In this document: one piece after another, positions 837 through 19,989 of the stretch | Layout: every line of letters begins with the position of its first letter | How positions within the stretch are numbered: position 1 is the stretch's first letter | Virus record (IMG/VR): IMGVR_UViG_3300042521_001938 | Coordinates: 1-22,085 of that record | Length of the DNA: 22,085 nucleotides | Origin: a virus | Reading direction: 5' to 3' (one strand) | Notes under the pieces: model-generated | Told to the model about the DNA's origin: nothing | The model's database searches: none | What the model saw: only the letters and a program-made list of their open reading frames with translations | Program-made: the position numbers and the translations under genes

Positions 837-3761
837 TCAAGCTTGTGCTTCTGTCCAGGACATACGCGCCTGGATGGAGTTAGTAGCAACTGAACTTACA
901 TTTGTTACCCTAACGGTAACCACATCTGGACCATCAGGATAAAGATTCGCAACAGTAGTAGGAACGTTAGCGTTTACGCCACCGCCAAGAATACTTGTAC
1001 CTAAATCACGAACAAGAGTAAGTTCCTGTTGAACAACGGATGGAGTGTATACAAAGAATGAGAAGATGCTTTCACCGCCCGTCACAGTTGTGCCAGCTGA
1101 ATGGTAGGAGACCTGTGCCAGGCTAGAGCCGCCAGCTGCCGAAAAAGTTCCGGAGCTTACCCGACCATTGAGGATGAGTTCAACGCGGAAGATAGCAGCG
1201 GTCCCAGTAGCAGCGATGTCCATCTGGCGCAAAGTCAGCTGCATACGATTAATCAGGTCTCTTGCACCAAGAGCACCGATCAAACCAGAGTCAACGCTTG
1301 GTGCCAGGCGAACACTCATTAGAGCAACAGTACCGCTTGCAGCAATGTTAGTCAAGGCTGTTGTCATGCCAGCCTGGAATACGAATGATTTGTCGTCGTC
1401 GTAACGACCATCCATGATTACAGCGGAGCCCCAGTGCGAAAGCGTAGAAGCAAATTGCGCGGGGAAGGATGCAACCTGTACTGGTGCAGTTGCACTATAT
1501 GTAAAAGTTTGAGCTGTAGCTGCGCCGCCACCGCTGCTTAAACCACCAGAACCACTGATGTTTGTAACAGCCCTGGTCAAACCAGTAAACGTTGTTGCTG
1601 TCTTGCTGTTGTAACGGATGTATTCAATTGCAGCACCTGTATTACCCGGCGCAGTAACAATTACAACACCTGACTGCGGAAAGTTAGCGGTGCTTGCAAC
1701 TGTAAGCGTGCTGAGTTCTGTGTTAGAAAGAGTTGCAGCTAACGTCGTAAAAAGCGGAATAGTATTGCACTCATAACGAGAGCACATGTTGCCGGAACGC
1801 ATGTAAGCTTCCGTATTACGGTTGCTGTTAGAAATGCGGTGACAATAAATGACCTCACCGTTTTGATCTTTAAAGCCGAAGCGAATTGCGCCAGCACCGT
1901 ACCAGGAGTAATCGATATACATCATCTGCATCTTTGTAAGATCCAGATTGAATCCGGCGCTTCCAGTGCCGTTGCAACGATCAAGATTCCACTGAGATTG
2001 CGAATATCTTTCATCAATACGCTTACTGGCAATACAGTTTGAAACGTTTGTAGCAGAACGGTATTCAGGATAAATAACCATTGAAGTATTACTGCTAATC
2101 GATTGGACCAAATAGGTCATGCCTCGAATAACAACGTAATCACCAGGAACTAACTGCTGTGCAAATTGAGTATTTGTACCGGTTACAGAACCAGAACCGG
2201 AGTTTACTGCCAGAGTTCCAGAAAGCTGTTTCGTACTGCTCCGTTTAACGGCGTACAAGGTTTGTCCATCAAACTCAAAAAAGAATCCGTTTTGTTCATC
2301 AAAAAGACCAATACGACTGCGAGCGCCGTACCAACCAGAAGGCGAAACAATGATAGCAGAACCTGTAGCTGTAGCAGCACTAGGAGTAGATGCTGCAGTG
2401 TAAGTAAAACTCAAGTCAGTTGGAACAGTTTGGACAAGAAACGTTCCGTTGTAAGCAGTTTCATTGCAACCAGTAACCACAACATAGGGTCCACCTGGGA
2501 CTGGATAGAGAGTTGATGTTGAGCCAGCAGCTGCAGTAATAGTTCCAGTTGGTGCGCTTCTTACATCAAACTGGAACACAGTCGGACTAAGAACAGCTTT
2601 AACTGTCCAATTGCCATTAGGAGGGTTTGTAGTCGCTGTTGTACCTGTCACAAAAACAGGGTCACCAACAGCAAAACCGTGCGGGTTTGTCGTTGTGCAG
2701 TTGATTGTTAAACTGTTGTTGATGAATTGTGAATAGGTAAACGCCAGGCCTGCACCAGCGTTAACAGCAATGCCAGTGTCAGAGACGTAAGACGGGTTTA
2801 AGTTGTGTGGGAATTTAAGGTTGACAGTGACAGTAGCGCCAGAAGAAGTAATCGAATCTACGTTAAATTCTGGTTTTACGCATGTACCAGTACTGAATTG
2901 AATGCCTTTACCGGACTGGTAACGGAAATAACGACGCGTTTGGCGAATCAGTTGGTTACCTGAATAAGGATAGCCAGCAGTAAAAGCAACGCCACCATCA
3001 AACGAACGATGGATAATGCTTCCGTACGGACGAGGATAAAGGTTGGTAGAACCTGCAGTGTTATTGATTGTGCCTGTTGGAGCGTTGATTACTGCAAAAG
3101 TAAACGTATTAGATGTTGGAGTAGTACGTACAACCCACGAACCGTTAGGTGGGTTTGTTGTTGCAGTAGTGCCAACAACATAAACGGCATCACCGATGCT
3201 TAAGCCGTGGGCATTTGTTGTTGTACAGGTAATAGTTGTAGTCGAAAAAGTAAATGCAGTTGTACCTGTTAACGGAATACCCGAGCCCGTATAAAAGTTA
3301 CCGCTGAAAATATACGTTTTTGTTGCGTCAAAAATTGAACCAGCACCAATTGTATTAGTTGCTACATACGTAAAGTTCACACCAGCGCTGACAGTGTTTA
3401 CTAGGAACCAACCGTCAGCCAAAGGATTGGTCGTACTCTGGACGTAAATAGGCGTACCGACTGCGGGAGGCGTGGTCGTCAGAACAGTGACAACGCGTGT
3501 GCCAGCGCCGGATACACCTGTAATGGTTAACGGTGTAGTAACGTCATAGAATGCACTGGGCCGGTTACTTAACAGGTTCAGCGATTCCCACTTAGTTGAC
3601 TGAGTGCTGTATTCAAAGTCAGTATCGATCAGTGCCTGCGGCGTAGAAACACGCAGTTTGCCCACAGGGTCCTGCAGAGTTTCACTGGGGGCAATCGGAA
3701 CGGGATTATAGAAACGATCAGTCCCGTCCGGGAACATGTGCTGAAAAGATGTAGCAGGCAC
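837..3761 (-). CDS. Large repeat-containing virion structural protein
   Basis: 974 residues from a GTG start at 3761 (MPATSFQHMFPDGTDRFYNP). The N-terminus, with 'SKLR/GKLRVSTPQALIDTDFEY' and 'WESLNLLSNRPSAFYD' style motifs, is a type I recognise from large cyanophage virion proteins; this is memory, not a search. Between about residues 80 and 470 there are several beta-hairpin repeats with a 'HGLSIGDAVYVVGTTATT' type core followed by 'NGSWVV' and 'NTFTF'. These resemble the FCCH-like repeats described in phage tail proteins. The C-terminal half is Ser/Thr/Ala-rich and predicted beta. There are no enzyme motifs. Its size, repeats and place downstream of the tail genes point to a tail, baseplate or fibre-base component. 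Confidence 0.85.
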   Translation of the reverse strand: MPATSFQHMFPDGTDRFYNPVPIAPSETLQDPVGKLRVSTPQALIDTDFEYSTQSTKWESLNLLSNRPSAFYDVTTPLTITGVSGAGTRVVTVLTTTPPAVGTPIYVQSTTNPLADGWFLVNTVSAGVNFTYVATNTIGAGSIFDATKTYIFSGNFYTGSGIPLTGTTAFTFSTTTITCTTTNAHGLSIGDAVYVVGTTATTNPPNGSWVVRTTPTSNTFTFAVINAPTGTINNTAGSTNLYPRPYGSIIHRSFDGGVAFTAGYPYSGNQLIRQTRRYFRYQSGKGIQFSTGTCVKPEFNVDSITSSGATVTVNLKFPHNLNPSYVSDTGIAVNAGAGLAFTYSQFINNSLTINCTTTNPHGFAVGDPVFVTGTTATTNPPNGNWTVKAVLSPTVFQFDVRSAPTGTITAAAGSTSTLYPVPGGPYVVVTGCNETAYNGTFLVQTVPTDLSFTYTAASTPSAATATGSAIIVSPSGWYGARSRIGLFDEQNGFFFEFDGQTLYAVKRSSTKQLSGTLAVNSGSGSVTGTNTQFAQQLVPGDYVVIRGMTYLVQSISSNTSMVIYPEYRSATNVSNCIASKRIDERYSQSQWNLDRCNGTGSAGFNLDLTKMQMMYIDYSWYGAGAIRFGFKDQNGEVIYCHRISNSNRNTEAYMRSGNMCSRYECNTIPLFTTLAATLSNTELSTLTVASTANFPQSGVVIVTAPGNTGAAIEYIRYNSKTATTFTGLTRAVTNISGSGGLSSGGGAATAQTFTYSATAPVQVASFPAQFASTLSHWGSAVIMDGRYDDDKSFVFQAGMTTALTNIAASGTVALMSVRLAPSVDSGLIGALGARDLINRMQLTLRQMDIAATGTAAIFRVELILNGRVSSGTFSAAGGSSLAQVSYHSAGTTVTGGESIFSFFVYTPSVVQQELTLVRDLGTSILGGGVNANVPTTVANLYPDGPDVVTVRVTNVSSVATNSIQARMSWTEAQA
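2518..2725 (-). repeat. Diverged repeat copy A within the 974-aa virion gene
   Basis: This ~200-bp stretch encodes 'HGFAVGDPVFVTGTTATT', 'NPPNGNWTVK' and 'APTGTITAAAGST'. It matches copy B at 3040-3245 in order and spacing, at both protein and DNA level (for example the 'aggagggtttgtagt' and 'aggtgggtttgttgt' segments). It is an internal duplication that has since diverged. Confidence 0.7.
3040..3245 (-). repeat. Diverged repeat copy B within the 974-aa virion gene
   Basis: This copy encodes 'HGLSIGDAVYVVGTTATT', 'NPPNGSWVVR' and 'APTGTINNTAGST', the counterpart of copy A at 2518-2725. The two copies are separated by about 315 bp of non-matching coding sequence. They are repeated protein domains and not a mobile element. 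Confidence 0.7.
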
Positions 3762-3824
3762 TGGCTTACTATTAATCTAGGCTGTTTAAATTCTAGCAGC
3801 GTTGTCAATTAAGCAGAAATTCTT

Positions 3825-4280
3825 TTAGCAACCAAGGTTAGATTTAAGCAGCCATTGGAATTTTTTGTGCGCACGCGCCCGCTCTACTGCCAAATCAAGA
3901 GTTAGGTCATCGCCAATAGCACCAGCTTGCTTTGCAATTTCAGCAAATTTATCTGCTAACAGATCAGAGTTTGCTGCCAGTGTGCCGATCAAACCTTCCT
4001 GATCAAAGCAGTCGTCTGGAACAGCAGGAAGTGTGGAATAGTTGAGGTCTTCAACTGTTTTAGGAGCAGCAATATCCAAAGAACGAAGATGCTCAGCGAT
4101 TGCATCAAGGCCATCTTGAAGCTCTTCATACATTGACTCCGTCAGTTTATGGATTGAGTAGAACTTACAGCCGATTAAATTCCAGTGCACAATATACGTC
4201 TGATTAAGCAAGTAAGACGTATCACGCAATGCTTGCACCAATGCAATGTAGCAACCTGTTTTTTTGTCTGTTTTAGCCAT
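3825..4280 (-). CDS. dps: Dps-like miniferritin (DNA/iron protection protein)
   Basis: 151 residues from ATG 4280. An in-frame ATG 12 nt upstream overlaps the previous stop; I prefer 4280 because GGTGA precedes it by 5 nt. The core 'YIVHWNLIGCKFYSIHKL' followed by 'YEELQDGLDAIAEHLRSL' is the Dps signature. The inter-subunit ferroxidase ligands all line up: His32, His44, Asp59 and Glu63, with spacings 12-15-4 as in E. coli Dps (H51, H63, D78, E82). Length is normal for the family, and the end keeps the 'EkfqWLLks'-type final helix. Known Dps proteins form 12-mers that oxidise Fe(II), using peroxide, and store iron; many also bind DNA. The N-terminus is short, so DNA binding is uncertain. The gene directly follows the Lys-rich gene at 4286 (stop-to-start gap of 5 nt), suggesting co-translation. 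A role in protecting DNA from oxidative damage during infection is inferred. Confidence 0.88.
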   Translation of the reverse strand: MAKTDKKTGCYIALVQALRDTSYLLNQTYIVHWNLIGCKFYSIHKLTESMYEELQDGLDAIAEHLRSLDIAAPKTVEDLNYSTLPAVPDDCFDQEGLIGTLAANSDLLADKFAEIAKQAGAIGDDLTLDLAVERARAHKKFQWLLKSNLGC

Positions 4281-4285
4281 AAGTG

Positions 4286-4585
4286 TCACCATTTTTCACG
4301 ATTAGCCCAATATGCAGCTGAACCTTTGCCTTTAGCAATGTTTTTAGCATGTCGAGCTTTAAAACTTGCACGTTTTTGTTTCATGCGTTCAGACTCACCT
4401 TCTTTAGGTTTGCCTGCTGTTTCTGCACCTTGCTCCCCAAACCGAATGATCTTTTCGCCGCCAGTGACATCTTTCCCGCACGCTTTAACAACATGAGATT
4501 TGGTGGGATGCCCTGGAGTGCGGACAGGTTTATTGCACTGCATGTGTGCTTTGGATAGCTTTTTTGCTTTAGCTCGATCAGACAT
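4286..4585 (-). CDS. Lys-rich small phage protein, DUF6321-like
   Basis: 99 residues from ATG 4585, which begins 2 nt after the stop of the upstream small gene (translational coupling). The sequence is strongly basic, with conserved-looking blocks: 'CNKPVRTPGHPTKSHVVKAC', 'EKIIRFGEQG', 'FKARHAKNIAKGK' and a C-terminal 'SAAYWANREKW'. I recognise this arrangement from many cyanophage and other phage genomes (the family I recall as DUF6321). The basic charge and Cys/His residues suggest nucleic-acid contact, but no function is established that I know of. It is followed at once by the Dps gene. Confidence 0.85.
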   Translation of the reverse strand: MSDRAKAKKLSKAHMQCNKPVRTPGHPTKSHVVKACGKDVTGGEKIIRFGEQGAETAGKPKEGESERMKQKRASFKARHAKNIAKGKGSAAYWANREKW

Positions 4586-4587
4586 TG

Positions 4588-4776
4588 TCAGACCTTGATT
4601 ACCCCACGGGCTACTTTGTCATTAACACTGTCAGGAACTTCACCCTTTGTTAACTGATCGAACCCAGACGGAATCCGTCCCTTCTGCAAGGAATCAATGC
4701 TGTCGATATAGTTAGCAAGAAAAACCGTTGAGTCGCGTTTAGCTTGCGATCCATCCGATGTAGGAATCACTGGCAA
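4588..4776 (-). CDS. Small hypothetical protein
   Basis: 62 residues ending in TGA at 4590-4588. The frame opens at TTG 4776 or GTG 4770; both lie inside the 3' end of the HNH gene, so the start is uncertain. The sequence, with 'VFLANYIDSIDSLQKGRIP', 'GFDQLTKGEVPDSVNDKVA' and a 'RGVIKV' end, is soluble, mixed charge, with no membrane segment. I do not recognise it. The tight spacing (2 nt) to the DUF6321-like gene supports its being translated. Confidence 0.55.
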   Translation of the reverse strand: MPVIPTSDGSQAKRDSTVFLANYIDSIDSLQKGRIPSGFDQLTKGEVPDSVNDKVARGVIKV

Positions 4777-5158
4777 TGTACGGAATAGCCGCGTCAGTTT
4801 GCGGTAGCTTTATGGAACAAGGTTTTTGCTCCATCCATTGCTTTAGTTTACCAAGCCTCTCCTCCGAGTAACAGGGATGGCTGTCTGTATACCAGACTTC
4901 AAGAAGAGTCGACGCTTTCGACTTGTTGCAGTTTGTACAACAACAAGCTAGGTTGTTTTTTACGTTATGACCACCTCTATGTTTTGGTAAGATATGGTCA
5001 ATCGTAGCCGTACCTTCGCTTAATTGTTTATCGCAGTAAGCACATTTCCATTGCCACTCTTCAAAGATGTGCTGTCTGAATTTTCGACGCGCAAGCTTAG
5101 GACTGAGAACAATAAGATTTGCTAAAAGGTCTTGCTCACAGTGGAACATGTCTGTCAT
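4739..5158 (-). CDS. Free-standing HNH endonuclease
   Basis: 139 residues if started at ATG 5158. It is a classic HNH (beta-beta-alpha metal) nuclease: a zinc pair CAYC (Cys39, Cys42), the catalytic 'TIDHILPKHRGG' with Asp54-His55, Asn67-Asn69 in 'VKNNLACC', and a second zinc pair in 'CCTNCNKSKAS'. Such proteins nick or cut DNA and often act as homing enzymes. The frame runs open through antisense tRNA-Leu sequence to 5272, but translating across a tRNA gene is unlikely. ATG 5227 is another possible start and would add a Cys-rich 'FCHGC' segment. Lying next to two tRNA genes is typical of phage mobile HNH genes. Its target is unknown. Confidence 0.85.
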   Translation of the reverse strand: MTDMFHCEQDLLANLIVLSPKLARRKFRQHIFEEWQWKCAYCDKQLSEGTATIDHILPKHRGGHNVKNNLACCCTNCNKSKASTLLEVWYTDSHPCYSEERLGKLKQWMEQKPCSIKLPQTDAAIPYIASDSYIGWIAS

Positions 5159-5219
5159 GCATCCATGACAAAACTGTATGGTGCATACACCTGCCTTTTG
5201 CGCTATGCTTTTGTCGCCA

Positions 5220-5303
5220 GGGAGCATGGCGGAATTGGTAGACGCAGCGGATTTAAAATCCGCAGGCGGCAACGCTGTGGGGGTTCAAGTCCCCCTGCTC
5301 CCA
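5220..5303 (+). tRNA. tRNA-Leu (anticodon TAA)
   Basis: The acceptor stem GGGAGCA (5220-5226) pairs with TGCTCCC (5296-5302), followed by discriminator A. The anticodon arm is GCGGA-TTTAAAA-TCCGC, giving anticodon TAA in a 7-nt loop. There is a long variable arm, as expected for class II tRNA-Leu, and a normal T-arm (GGGGGTTCAAGTCCCCC). CCA is not encoded. The gene has no intron and lies on the plus strand, opposite to the surrounding protein genes. It would read UUA (and possibly UUG) codons. Confidence 0.97.
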
Positions 5304-5305
5304 TT

Positions 5306-5378
5306 GCTGGATTAGCTCAGTGGTCAGAGCACTCGCCTTGTAAGCGAGGGGCCGTCAGTTCAAATCTGACATTCAGCT
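5306..5378 (+). tRNA. tRNA-Thr (anticodon TGT)
   Basis: The acceptor stem GCTGGAT (5306-5312) pairs with ATTCAGC (5371-5377) with one G-T wobble; the discriminator base is T. The anticodon arm is CTCGC-CTTGTAA-GCGAG, giving anticodon TGT. The D-loop (AGCTCAGTGGT) and T-loop (GTTCAAATC) are normal. CCA is not encoded. It follows tRNA-Leu after 2 nt and is presumably co-transcribed with it. Its last base overlaps the stop codon of the minus-strand gene at 5378. Confidence 0.97.
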
Positions 5379-5606: not shown

Positions 5607-5810
5607 TCAAAGAACCTCGCTGATTGCTTCTGCTTCGTTCATTTTTTGTTCCTCTTTCTGGAAAATTTCCAGCAGCTCCAAAGCACCTTGAACTTTTAAG
5701 TACCCTTCTTTAAGAGCAAAAACATTAGTTTCGGCTTGGCGAATTTGGTTGGCAAGGTCAGCCAGTTGCTCTTTGAGCTTGGGACCCATTTCTTTGATGA
5801 TTGCTTCCAT
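5607..5810 (-). CDS. Small coiled-coil protein (hypothetical)
   Basis: 67 residues from ATG 5810, 4 nt after the endolysin stop. Nearly all of it is helix with heptad-like spacing ('LKEQLADLANQIRQAETNVF', 'YLKVQGALELLEIFQKEE'), suggesting a coiled coil. There is no signal peptide or transmembrane stretch, so it does not look like a spanin on its own. I recall similar short proteins in cyanophages without assigned function. Being immediately downstream of the endolysin makes a lysis accessory role conceivable. Confidence 0.7.
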   Translation of the reverse strand: MEAIIKEMGPKLKEQLADLANQIRQAETNVFALKEGYLKVQGALELLEIFQKEEQKMNEAEAISEVL

Positions 5811-5814
5811 GAGA

Positions 5815-7062
5815 TCAAAGTTTTTTAAAGTTTAACCAACACCAGCCACTTCCGCCACCCTCAACAAAAAACCTGGGGTCAGTGTTCTTGAAACTGTAAC
5901 GAACATTTTTTCCAGCTTCTGCGCCGGTCTTTGCCCAGCCTCCGTTAACGAGATCAAGCTCTCCATACGGGTCCTGTACCAGCCAGTATCCATCCCCATA
6001 TCCAGAAATAACCACGAAGTGACCACTACCAGAAGGATCAGATACAGCTCCATGATGAAGAATACCGGCAACAACAGGTTTGCCTTTGTCGATCTGATCT
6101 TTGACATCTTGCTCATCTGCTGTCTGCGTGAATTTAGCATCAACGTTTAATTCTTTCAAGGCACAGATATGTGGGTAACGCGCTGGACTATCACCGTACT
6201 TATTGACAATCTTTAAGTAATCTATATCGTCATTAATACCAGGCACGTCTAAGTACTTTAAGCACATAGCAATGCTGCTGGATTGGCATTGGCGCCAGCC
6301 TTGAGGACCGTTATCAACTTGATAAAAGTAAGGGAAGTTGCGCAGGTAACGAAGATCACCTGTAGTCGCATACGGCTTGACTTCTGTTGTTGTTACAAGT
6401 CCCTCCCAATGTTCATCAAACACCCACCACTTACCGAGGCCAAAGCCTAATTCAAGAAGCGTGTGTTTATCTTTTTTATCAAGAACCTTACAGTTTCGAA
6501 TTGTACGTTTTGCAACAACTGAAGACTTTTCATCATTGCTTAATTCCGATGAAGGAATAGGACGTTTTTTGAACCAGGTTTTTGTGTTGCTGGTAATCTC
6601 AACTGTTCCTGTTTTTAACTCGGGAGCAGCAGAACAAAAAACTTCAACTTCTTGAGTTCGTCTACGACTCAAACCTTCTAAAATTTTTCCATCTCCTTTG
6701 TTCCAGCGGGGCAGCTCTTCTTTGGCTACTGTGTTTGGGTCTTCTCCAGCATTTAGGCGCTTAAGTAGAGTGGATTGACCAAGGGCACCGGCCCCGACGT
6801 TAAAACAAAAAGAAACAAGAGCATCAAACTGATGCTGATTAATCGGCACCTTAACAAGGTTCTCTACTGCTTTTTCTGTGCTGGCAAGATCAGCCTTCAA
6901 TAAAATTTCTGCATGCGCCGACGTAATCTGCGTATTTGGTTTAACGTCTGGACCTGTGTGACCGTAACCTACAGTCCAAATCCCTACGGCATCTTTATAG
7001 GAGACGCAACGTAAACCTTCAAAAGCTTTAATTAGTTCGATTCCAGCTTTAGATGTTTTCAT
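5815..7062 (-). CDS. Two-domain endolysin: GH24 lysozyme + C39-like cysteine peptidase
   Basis: 415 residues from ATG 7062; an upstream in-frame TTG at 7074 is less likely. Residues 1 to ~145 are a T4/P22-type muramidase: Glu15 in 'AFEGLRC', Asp24 in 'YKDAVGIWTVGYGH' and Thr30 give the family's E-8-D-5-T spacing. A middle segment (~155-225) may be a wall-binding SH3-like domain. Residues ~240-415 look like a Peptidase_C39_2 domain: Cys259 in 'GWRQCQSSSIAM', His348 in 'GHFVVISGYGDGYWLVQDPY' and Asp364. The enzyme would cut both glycan strands and, by inference, peptide cross-links of host peptidoglycan. There is no signal peptide, so it needs a holin. It lies directly downstream of the tail fibre gene. 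Confidence 0.9.
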   Translation of the reverse strand: MKTSKAGIELIKAFEGLRCVSYKDAVGIWTVGYGHTGPDVKPNTQITSAHAEILLKADLASTEKAVENLVKVPINQHQFDALVSFCFNVGAGALGQSTLLKRLNAGEDPNTVAKEELPRWNKGDGKILEGLSRRRTQEVEVFCSAAPELKTGTVEITSNTKTWFKKRPIPSSELSNDEKSSVVAKRTIRNCKVLDKKDKHTLLELGFGLGKWWVFDEHWEGLVTTTEVKPYATTGDLRYLRNFPYFYQVDNGPQGWRQCQSSSIAMCLKYLDVPGINDDIDYLKIVNKYGDSPARYPHICALKELNVDAKFTQTADEQDVKDQIDKGKPVVAGILHHGAVSDPSGSGHFVVISGYGDGYWLVQDPYGELDLVNGGWAKTGAEAGKNVRYSFKNTDPRFFVEGGGSGWCWLNFKKL

Positions 7063-17915: not shown

Positions 17916-19049
17916 TCAAACGATGGTGAAAGCTGCGGTGACGAAGTCCTTGTTCAGGTTGGCAAAGCCAGCGTACAGCTGCCAAATCAAGATGATAAAG
18001 CGGCTGAAGTCATCGTTGTTGTTGATGAGAACCTGAGCGTTGGGGCCACCGATGCCCACGCCAACGGCCTGAGGACCGAAGAACAGAGCAGGAGGAGTGT
18101 TGTGAGACACAGCGCCGAGACCGTCGCCAGTGTCCACAGTGATGGACTTGTCAGCAAAGTTGGTGGACTCGAAGAAACGTACGCCTTCAAAGACAAAGCC
18201 AGAAGGCATGATCGGTTCACCAGCCACGAATTGAGCTTGGCCGTACTGACCGCCGCCATAGATGGAGGCGTTGGGAGCCATGGCACCCATAAGGGGGTTA
18301 GGCTGGCCCATGCCAGGGTAACGAGCCACTTCACGGAAACCTTGGTCAGCACGCAGATCCTTCATGAAAGAGGGATCAGCAATACAGCGGTAGTAACCGT
18401 CAGCAAAGACAGGCACATTGCGCTTGCGGAGTTGCTTGACAACTTCCAGAAGGTCAGTTTTGACGTTGAACTTATAACGCTCAGAAGCGTATTCTGTAGC
18501 GGAATAAGCAGTCAGCGTGGTAGAGCCAGTCTTGATCTTACCGTTGGGGTAGTAGTAACCACCTTGGGTGTCAGAAGAGGCACCACGAGCTTCCGATTTC
18601 GAAAACTCATCAAGGAACACACGATCGCGCCAGCGGCGATAGTCGTCTAGCAGGGTCAGCGAACCGATGGACTGGTGGAACATGTTAAGGTTCCCGGTGT
18701 CCAGCAGCAGACGCTGAGCGGTCATCAGAGTCTCACGAGCAATTTTGAAAGTGCTCGGGAGGTTGGAGTTGTTCGGGTCGGCAGGACCAGTGTACTCACG
18801 CAGAGAGACGAGCACTTTGTCCTTAACGATGGAGCGGCTATTAGCCGTACCAATCGTTTGGTCTTGGGTACGCTCACGCTGAGTTTTGGTGCCGGGGTTG
18901 CCCCAGAAACGGTACCGGTCTAACTGAACAGTTTGACCAGGCTGTTTAGTGAAGTCGTGGACAACAACAGGCTCGGCTGCCATTTCCACAATATAAGCCG
19001 GGTGGGGACGGTACAGCTCCGCGCCCAACAGCTTGGGAAAATCGTTCTC
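17916..19049 (-). CDS. Major capsid protein, 3' exon
   Basis: About 377 codons, forming the bulk of the capsid protein after the group I intron. It opens ~'ENDFPKLLGAELYRPHPAYI', with no ATG. A TTG at 19028 could be misread as a start, but the frame runs on upstream into the intron core and stops only at 19088-19086. Blocks such as 'EPVVVHDFTKQPGQTVQLDR' and 'FWGNPGTKTQRERTQDQTIG' are typical of HK97-fold major capsid proteins of the P22/N4-gp56-like kind; I cannot name the exact subgroup. The segment 'YRRWRDRVFLDEFSKSEARG' is helical and probably in the E-loop/spine region. Context: downstream of portal and scaffold. The exact junction is unresolved (19043-19056). Confidence 0.85.
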   Translation of the reverse strand, partial: ENDFPKLLGAELYRPHPAYIVEMAAEPVVVHDFTKQPGQTVQLDRYRFWGNPGTKTQRERTQDQTIGTANSRSIVKDKVLVSLREYTGPADPNNSNLPSTFKIARETLMTAQRLLLDTGNLNMFHQSIGSLTLLDDYRRWRDRVFLDEFSKSEARGASSDTQGGYYYPNGKIKTGSTTLTAYSATEYASERYKFNVKTDLLEVVKQLRKRNVPVFADGYYRCIADPSFMKDLRADQGFREVARYPGMGQPNPLMGAMAPNASIYGGGQYGQAQFVAGEPIMPSGFVFEGVRFFESTNFADKSITVDTGDGLGAVSHNTPPALFFGPQAVGVGIGGPNAQVLINNNDDFSRFIILIWQLYAGFANLNKDFVTAAFTIV

Positions 19050-19269
19050 CTGATCTCCAGTCTCCTGAAGGGGTGGACTATCTCTTCACCCTGTAAGGGT
19101 GCCGGGCGCTAATGGCGTATTACGAATGAAGCGTCATTCACCGCCTAGTCTCTGCACCTTCCAACTACGTACTTAGTTGGCTTGGCTCAGGATTACCCTC
19201 GACTTGACGTTAGGGCTTCCCTGAATTCACCCGGTTTTCACTGATCAGTTGCCTGATCAGGCGACAACG

Positions 19270-19298
19270 TTGACTACTCAGCTAAGTCGTGTTAGGAT
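19270..19298 (+). promoter_or_regulatory. Candidate sigma70-type promoter for the homing endonuclease
   Basis: TTGACT (19270-19275) and TAGGAT (19293-19298) are separated by exactly 17 bp on the plus strand. Transcription would start near 19305, shortly before the endonuclease ATG at 19324. A short hairpin (GTTGT/ACAAC, 19308-19323) lies right before that ATG and could limit translation. Confidence 0.5.
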
Positions 19299-19323
19299 TG
19301 GAATCAAGTTGTTTTTATACAAC

Positions 19324-19854
19324 ATGGAACCAAAACTTGTTCCTGGATTTGAAAACCTTTACTTGAGCTTTTCTGGGACTCCTTATCAAAAAATCAATGA
19401 AGACTTTGTTGAATTAAAGGTCAGCTCATCAAGCATGTACGACAGGGTTTCTGTTCTTAAAAATGAAAAGAAAGAAAGGCACCATGTACACGTTCTTATG
19501 GCTGTGACATTTTTAGATTTAGATTTAGCTTTACACGGAACCGGAAGTGCTTCTCTTCAAGTTGATCACAAAGACGGAAACAAAAGAAACAATTCTCTTG
19601 AAAACCTTGAAGTTGTTACAAAAAGAGAGAATTACGATAGGGCGTTAAAAGCTGGGTGCTACTCTAAAAATGGTTACGCCAGTAAAGGTAGGCCAAAGAA
19701 AACATTAAGAAAGTTTTCGGAGGATGACATTGTGCAGATTAAAGAAATGAGATCAGACGGTCTTTCTTATAGAAAAATTGCTGCTTACTTTAACTGCAAT
19801 CACTTGGCCATTTATCAAATCTTAAAAGGAAAAACCTATCAGGATCTGAGTTAG
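19324..19854 (+). CDS. HNH homing endonuclease, antisense within the group I intron
   Basis: 176 residues from ATG 19324. A TTG at 19249 would extend the frame but lies inside the intron's P2-like hairpin. Residues ~51-100 are an HNH_3-type nuclease: 'RHHVHVLMAVTFL', 'VDHKDGNKRNNSLENLEVVT' with Asp81-His82 and Asn89-Asn90. Residues ~131-168 are a helix-turn-helix ('FSEDDIVQIKEMRSDGLSYR', 'KIAAYFNC', 'AIYQILKG'), probably for target binding. Such enzymes cut intron-less copies of the host gene so the intron spreads. The gene is AT-rich compared with the capsid exons, a sign of separate origin. Unusually, it runs opposite to the intron, so it cannot be made from the capsid transcript and needs its own promoter (candidate at 19270). 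It ends ~40 nt from the intron's 5' end. Confidence 0.9.
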   Translation: MEPKLVPGFENLYLSFSGTPYQKINEDFVELKVSSSSMYDRVSVLKNEKKERHHVHVLMAVTFLDLDLALHGTGSASLQVDHKDGNKRNNSLENLEVVTKRENYDRALKAGCYSKNGYASKGRPKKTLRKFSEDDIVQIKEMRSDGLSYRKIAAYFNCNHLAIYQILKGKTYQDLS

Positions 19855-19898
19855 CTATCGATAAACATGTTGGTAATTCAGCGTAAGTTTTAGCTGAA

Positions 19899-19976
19899 AC
19901 CAGGATCTGGAGGATCCTTGGGTACAGTAGTTTCCGGTTTCCCGTAACCGCTGCTTGCCTGGAACTTCCGTCCCAT
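19899..19976 (-). CDS. Major capsid protein, 5' exon
   Basis: A short open frame from ATG 19976 encodes about 26 residues (MGRKFQASSGYGKPETTV, then PKDPPDPG) and reaches TAA at 19892-19890, just inside the intron. I infer it is the first exon of the capsid gene: it has the same strand, sits right before the intron, and its Gly/Pro-rich end joins naturally to 'ENDFPKLLGAEL'. The joined product would be about 403 residues, a normal capsid size. No Shine-Dalgarno is seen before the ATG; a TATAAT lies 7 nt upstream, so the message may be leaderless or the promoter call false. The 3' end of this exon is uncertain by several bases. Confidence 0.7.
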
Positions 19977-19983
19977 TGAAAAA

Positions 19984-19989
19984 ATTATA
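19984..19989 (-). promoter_or_regulatory. Candidate -10 element of the capsid gene
   Basis: TATAAT on the minus strand ('gctataatt') ends 7 nt before the capsid ATG. There is no matching -35. If used, the transcript would begin at or next to the start codon. Similar isolated TATAAT boxes are at 20794-20799 and 10422-10427. Confidence 0.3.

Follow-up and report, generated by a model that had tools for sequence, protein, structure and literature searches.

The window analysed in this work, a stretch of 22,085 bases that is the full length of the virus record, carries a capsid gene on its minus strand, a group I intron close to the start of this gene, and, inside the intron, an HNH homing endonuclease-like gene that is read from the other strand (Table 1). 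The capsid frame at 17916-19028 (minus strand) encodes a major head protein (PHROG 1357, 3.4e-16), and its only match among 50,697 phage records was in Synechococcus phage S-EIV1 (KJ410740.1; 69.9% identity); the virus is an S-EIV1-like cyanophage. S-EIV1 has the related capsid gene, but without the intron, and reads VFIDTDFPKI uninterrupted upstream of the match. In the window, the upstream end of the capsid frame has no ATG and, as the original prediction had stated, the frame runs into intron sequence, where it stays open for just 19 further codons beyond 19028; the same was found in the identical relatives L002 and L003.

Table 1. Features of the capsid intron locus, in positions of the window.
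Feature	Positions	Strand	Remarks
Capsid exon 1	19857..19868	-	ATG TTT ATC GAT (M F I D), 12 nt, directly at the intron 5' end
Group I intron	19047..19856	-	810 nt; first bases AGCTAAC, last ATCAGGAG (terminal G); empty site in L004
Capsid exon 2	17916..19046	-	spliced product 380 aa; PHROG 1357
Internal guide GUU(P10)-GUCG(P1)	19262..19268	-	pairing and covariation
Rfam-matched core, P2 to P9	19054..19294	-	RF00028; the P1 of the Rfam model is placed on L1 sequence
HNH homing endonuclease-like gene	19324..19854	+	176 aa; starts with ATG; its TAG stop lies 2 nt from the intron 5' end
Candidate extended -10 of the HNH gene, TGTTAGGAT	19290..19298	+	-34 from the start codon
Capsid 5' leader, allele accompanying HNH-bearing introns	19869..19977	-	start approximate
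TATAAT of the likely capsid promoter (TTGCTATAAT)	19984..19989	-	from sequence; same motif in many relatives

A group I intron within the capsid gene had been predicted from the letters of the window, and a search with RF00028 bore this out: at 19294-19054 of the minus strand the model scored 93.7 bits (E 2.9e-23), against a gathering score of 50, and all 8 relatives submitted to the same search passed as well. A covariance model, R1, was built from 17 relatives at the same site, and the window, itself one of these 17 training sequences, scored 273.9 bits against it. In the alignment of the 17 relatives, 29 of the 67 predicted pairs have changed on both sides and still pair. This match is more than chance, because a high covariance score, pairs changed on both sides and an arrangement conserved in relatives were all found. 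On these comparisons, the major head protein gene is interrupted by a group I intron, which is probably self-splicing.

Joining 19857 to 19046 (AAC GAT TTT CCC) gives a protein that starts with MFIDNDFPKLLGAELYR and has 10 residues (MFIDNDFPKL) before the TTG at 19028. Capsid relatives were drawn from IMG/VR as the best 80 of 598 encoding stretches; 68 of them have no intron at the 5' end, 8 have one, and in 4 (L035, L043, L058 and L078) this end is missing. All of the 68 intronless relatives, whose starts are readable, begin with MFIDNDFPKL. The original prediction had used an ATG-led frame at 19976 as the 5' exon, which would have added 26 residues to the N-terminus. The comparison with intronless homologues refuted that exon, but the intron itself stands, with the different short exon at 19868-19857 providing the N-terminus. 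The frame at 19976 belongs to the capsid leader and follows closely on the TATAAT at 19989-19984; the sequence of this leader is not constant among relatives, and in many of the intronless ones the ATG is missing.

In the predicted splice-site pairing, GUCG of the internal guide pairs with CGAU of exon 1, with a U.G pair at the splice site, and GUU pairs with AAC of exon 2. The core pattern was present in 72 records, 66 of which were parsed, several contigs being present twice; the other 6 either have their introns in other genes (L129, L138 and L142) or are cut by contig ends (L128, L155 and L164). Every one of the 66 parsed intron-bearing records has the 12-nt exon, allowing synonymous or F/W changes, and combines exon CGAU with a guide of GUC(G or A). 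Furthermore, the pair formed by exon base 9 is C-G in 59/66 parsed records and U-A in the remaining 7/66 (L134 and the L131/L145/L161 group), without exception, and the terminal G of the intron is found throughout the aligned set. P1 has only 4 pairs and P10 has 3-4, and RNAalifold assigned the guide bases to pairs other than P1/P10; the register of P1 and P10 thus rests on the covariation and the spliced product. A first splice model, with P1 formed by UUUAUC and GAUAGG and an exon of 9 nt, was dropped because the intron of L105 ends in ACTG before AATGAT, and the pairing of CGAU with GUCG fits and covaries. From the sequence and this covariation, we infer that the capsid transcript is spliced: its ribozyme would pair CGAU with GUCG and AAC with GUU, excise itself and restore MFIDNDFPKL, and the ligated junction across 19868/19046 would read ATGTTTATCGAT-AACGATTTT.

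The HNH gene lies wholly within the intron, where it occupies the P1 loop, and is read from the other strand, in agreement with the earlier placement of an HNH gene on the plus strand of the intron. Its product matches Pfam HNH_3 above the cut-off (6.4e-11) and PHROG 59 HNH (4.2e-24), and its C-terminal part contains an HTH-like stretch that matches HTH_38 below the cut-off (1.5e-4). Residues 2-134, including the HNH motif, align to the HNH homing endonuclease of PDB 1u3e (E 2.2e-6), a distant relative that we take to be I-HmuI of phage SPO1; the I-HmuI gene is carried in the sense direction by an intron of a DNA polymerase gene. A relative of the intron-borne HNH protein occurs in 121 phage records, each with less than 60% identity, and a search of 84,980 bacterial and archaeal genomes gave one match, which was weak and at the level of the motif. 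All 13 HNH-bearing 5' haplotypes have the gene in antisense orientation.

Both splicing and nuclease expression could be dispensed with under other readings of the locus. If the capsid started at an internal codon, for instance the TTG at 19028, from which the frame is open, no splicing would be needed and the intron would be an untranslated leader. However, the start common to the readable intronless relatives lies upstream of 19028, and an MFID or MWID exon is kept by every parsed intron-bearing record together with a guide that varies along with it, so that an internal start is very improbable. Similarly, the antisense HNH frame could be a passenger or a relic whose expression has been lost, which would agree with the presence at the same site of 6 haplotypes without HNH. 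However, the gene is intact in 58/58 records, representing 24 distinct sequences, and dN/dS is 0.07-0.18 across diverged copies, among the pairs with measurable dS; many pairs are saturated, and one near-identical pair has a dN of 0. This conservation would require translation, and a relic can hardly be reconciled with it. Because the frame is always intact and its dN/dS is low, it is taken to be translated, and, as far as a comparison of sequences goes, these data establish that it is under selection at the protein level.

The HNH protein would be translated from a plus-strand transcript of its own, predicted to start from the candidate extended -10 element about 34 nt before the start codon. 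TGnTAnnnT occurs at -31 to -35 of the HNH start in 10 of 12 types (all except L131 and L161), where shuffles of the same stretches would be expected to give 1.3; the types are related, and the 10 occurrences are thus not 10 independent events. A plain consensus promoter scan of the window region gave 1 site versus 1.7 in shuffles, which is not above chance, and no clear Shine-Dalgarno sequence was seen ahead of the HNH start. The -10-like element, which is TGCTATAnT-like in several relatives, resembles TTGCTATAAT of the capsid gene itself. It therefore gives no ground for the proposal, made with the original prediction, that expression of the nuclease is limited to early infection, and this proposal is unsupported.

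The distribution of the intron suggests that it moves. When 83 distinct capsid genes, 21 of them with the intron, are placed on a quickly built tree whose branches have SH-aLRT values as their sole support, at least 15 gains or losses are needed. The precise empty site is found in L004, which is 98-99% identical over kilobases to the intron-bearing L003, and the window differs from L004 by a clean insertion of 810 nt, with 0 mismatches across the next 150 nt downstream. Six haplotypes have HNH-free introns at the same capsid site; among the HNH-free introns, L007, L147 and L159 retain the end of the HNH gene, and the P1 loop measures 7 nt in L160, 14 nt in L144 and 42 nt in L145. Judged from these comparisons, the arrangement of the intron with its antisense HNH gene looks both stable and mobile. 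At a single site the family offers a natural series, from alleles without the intron, through introns that lack the HNH gene or have a decayed copy of it, to introns with an intact one, on which the evolution and the cost of the arrangement could be tested directly. Ahead of its capsid region, L004 also has a frame of 123 aa (3742-4110) that is absent from the otherwise 98-99% identical L003.

Upstream of the insertion site, a part of the leader of about 90 nt differs nearly everywhere between the window and L004, up to the capsid TATAAT. When leader haplotypes are compared, the motif GATCCTGGTnTCAGC is present in 11/15 of those with HNH-bearing introns (all except L105, L131, L151 and L161, a group with another leader), in 3/6 of those with HNH-free introns (all except L144, L145 and L160) and in 0/54 of the intronless ones; in the tree set, 20/21 intron rows and 0/61 others have it. 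Furthermore, of 12 independent contrasts on starred branches, 11 show the leader allele and the intron changing together (p 0.001). The simplest reading of this linkage, as it appears in the sequences, is one-sided co-conversion during homing, and a leader that moves with the intron suggests that the mobile unit is larger than the intron alone. CAGATCCTG (minus strand) occurs twice in the window, in the leader (19897-19911) and at the 5' end of the intron (19840-19850), where it is antisense to the C-terminal codons of the HNH gene.

Other functions can be proposed for both the element before the HNH gene and the leader. The conserved TGCTA before HNH could be an RNA pairing element instead of a promoter, with GCUA near the 5' end of the intron pairing to UAGC in the P1 loop, and by eye the GCUA close to the 5' splice site could pair with UAGC in several haplotypes. 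However, the window has TGTTAGGAT, which retains the promoter-like bases and not UAGC, and the diverged L105 retains TGATACAGT at an equal distance; we regard a pairing element as unlikely, and a promoter remains our candidate. A somewhat better case, though still a doubtful one, can be made for a leader allele that is functionally needed together with HNH, for example because it terminates or weakens transcription of the plus strand or is bound by the nuclease, and that is not simply copied along. The association of GATCCTGGTnTCAGC by haplotype would fit this, the HNH-bearing exceptions all belonging to a single group, and so would the GATCCTG that is common to the leader and the intron 5' end, within CAGATCCTG in the window. 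However, one-sided co-conversion accounts for the linkage without any function, and no plus-strand terminator was found when one was looked for in the leader. Quite unlikely, in our estimate from the sequence, is the further possibility that leader and intron form one mobile unit in which the antisense nuclease transcript crosses the capsid start and leader, so that the locus would both home and tune capsid expression. If this were true, convergent or antisense transcription would determine how the capsid message is spliced or translated, with the co-inherited leader as the matching part.

Homing is itself inferred from the patchy distribution of the intron and the linked leader. The most likely target of the HNH protein is the stretch around the MFID|NDF codons of intronless capsid alleles, and repair after cutting there would copy the intron and the upstream leader into the recipient. 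Taken together, the data make it very probable that a mobile intron lies after codon 4 of the capsid gene and is spliced out, and that the antisense HNH gene in its P1 loop, presumably expressed from its own transcript, drives homing, in which the leader is copied along. The homing genes of phage introns are usually on the host transcript, where they must not disturb splicing. Reading the gene from the other strand, behind a candidate promoter of its own, would uncouple the production of the nuclease from splicing; its RNA, however, would be antisense to the beginning of the message for the most abundant virion protein.

It has been reported that the homing genes of the Didymium (myxomycete) nuclear rDNA group I introns, I-DirII and I-DsqI, are antisense (PMC9548176, PMC3073962), and the parallel with eukaryotic nuclear rDNA introns that was drawn in the original prediction holds, as far as the available portions of these papers go: in both, intron and host gene share one strand and the homing gene is read from the other. 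The Didymium introns are located in eukaryotic nuclear rRNA genes and, according to the same portions, have a His-Cys box enzyme, a P9 extension, an RNA polymerase II promoter and a spliceosomal intron, whereas the present case involves a phage protein gene, the HNH family and the P1 loop. The I-PfoP3I intron of cyanophage Pf-WMP3 is similar in combining a group I intron and an HNH enzyme in a protein gene, but the gene is that of DNA polymerase, the intron belongs to group IA2, and an antisense gene is not mentioned in the available part of the report (PMC3428280). In phage T4, the available part of a review describes SegD as antisense to the late capsid genes 23 and 24, but as a free-standing GIY-YIG gene outside any intron, and states that all T4 homing genes except segD run in the direction of their neighbours (PMC2988022). 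The words antisense, opposite and orientation do not occur in the available part of a review of bacterial group I introns (PMC3984707). In the open-access literature, as represented by the available portions of sources including PMC3428280, PMC10448857, PMC9548176, PMC2988022, PMC6669764, PMC9769974, PMC3073962 and PMC3984707, with subscription papers mostly outside this scope, no antisense homing gene in a phage group I intron is described, which is weak evidence of absence. An antisense homing gene is thus of a kind known from nuclear rDNA introns and, on this weak evidence, appears to be new for phage group I introns.

Other viral introns were surveyed as well. A 14-base P7 pattern occurred in at least 120 viral stretches, and a regular-expression search around 121 motif places gave 22 ORF rows, mostly sense; four antisense ORF rows near the motif were judged by eye not to be homing genes. 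Because the P7 motif alone admits chance matches, model R1 was adopted, and it gave 95 matches at E below 1e-6, of which 93 were distinct. Among the 8 Pfam-scanned of 39 antisense ORF candidates in this survey, none proved to be a homing gene located within its intron; the ORFs of L227 (a weak Vsr match, E 0.0022) and L232 (LAGLIDADG_2) are antisense and homing-like, and both lie outside the intron. Among the best 25 of 86 families matched by the sense ORFs beside introns, 138 of 172 of which were scanned, were Endonuclease_7 (5), HNH (4), LAGLIDADG_2 (2) and GIY-YIG (2). The same scan of 138 sense ORFs (loci L167-L285), again among the best 25 of 86 families, gave Gp10A-like (8), Phage_capsid_4 (7), SU10_MCP (6) and Photo_RC (6). 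Capsid genes seem to be favoured hosts among the surveyed viral group I introns.

Several related loci have further introns or homing-like genes. The capsid gene of L134 (3460-6700) contains at least 5 group I cores according to model R1, with a sense LAGLIDADG_2 ORF in one intron (4510-5337, plus strand) and an antisense LAGLIDADG_3 ORF between capsid exons (5752-6603, minus strand; outside the R1 survey), and other introns of the same capsid gene family carry sense LAGLIDADG_2 genes. The related group of L131, L145, L151, L154, L161 and L232 has several capsid introns each and an antisense LAGLIDADG-like ORF just upstream of the capsid start, the Pfam-scanned copy being that of L232 (LAGLIDADG_2). 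In L144, an antisense HNH gene of another family (1678-2142; PHROG 3377, 2.8e-35) is located just upstream of the capsid gene, and the capsid intron itself is without a homing gene. L129 and L138 have antisense ORFs, homing-like by eye, upstream of their intron-bearing genes. It is possible that the upstream antisense genes of L144, L129 and L138 are forerunners of the arrangement inside the intron. In L142 (424-1031), a group I intron overlaps or adjoins a tmRNA match on the minus strand, and in L227 (5581-6700) a group I intron appears to split a tRNA-like gene, with the antisense nuclease-like ORF outside the intron. The window itself contains a second HNH gene at 4739-5378 (minus strand; HNH_5, 2.3e-11), whose upstream end overlaps two tRNA genes on the plus strand and whose true start is probably further in.
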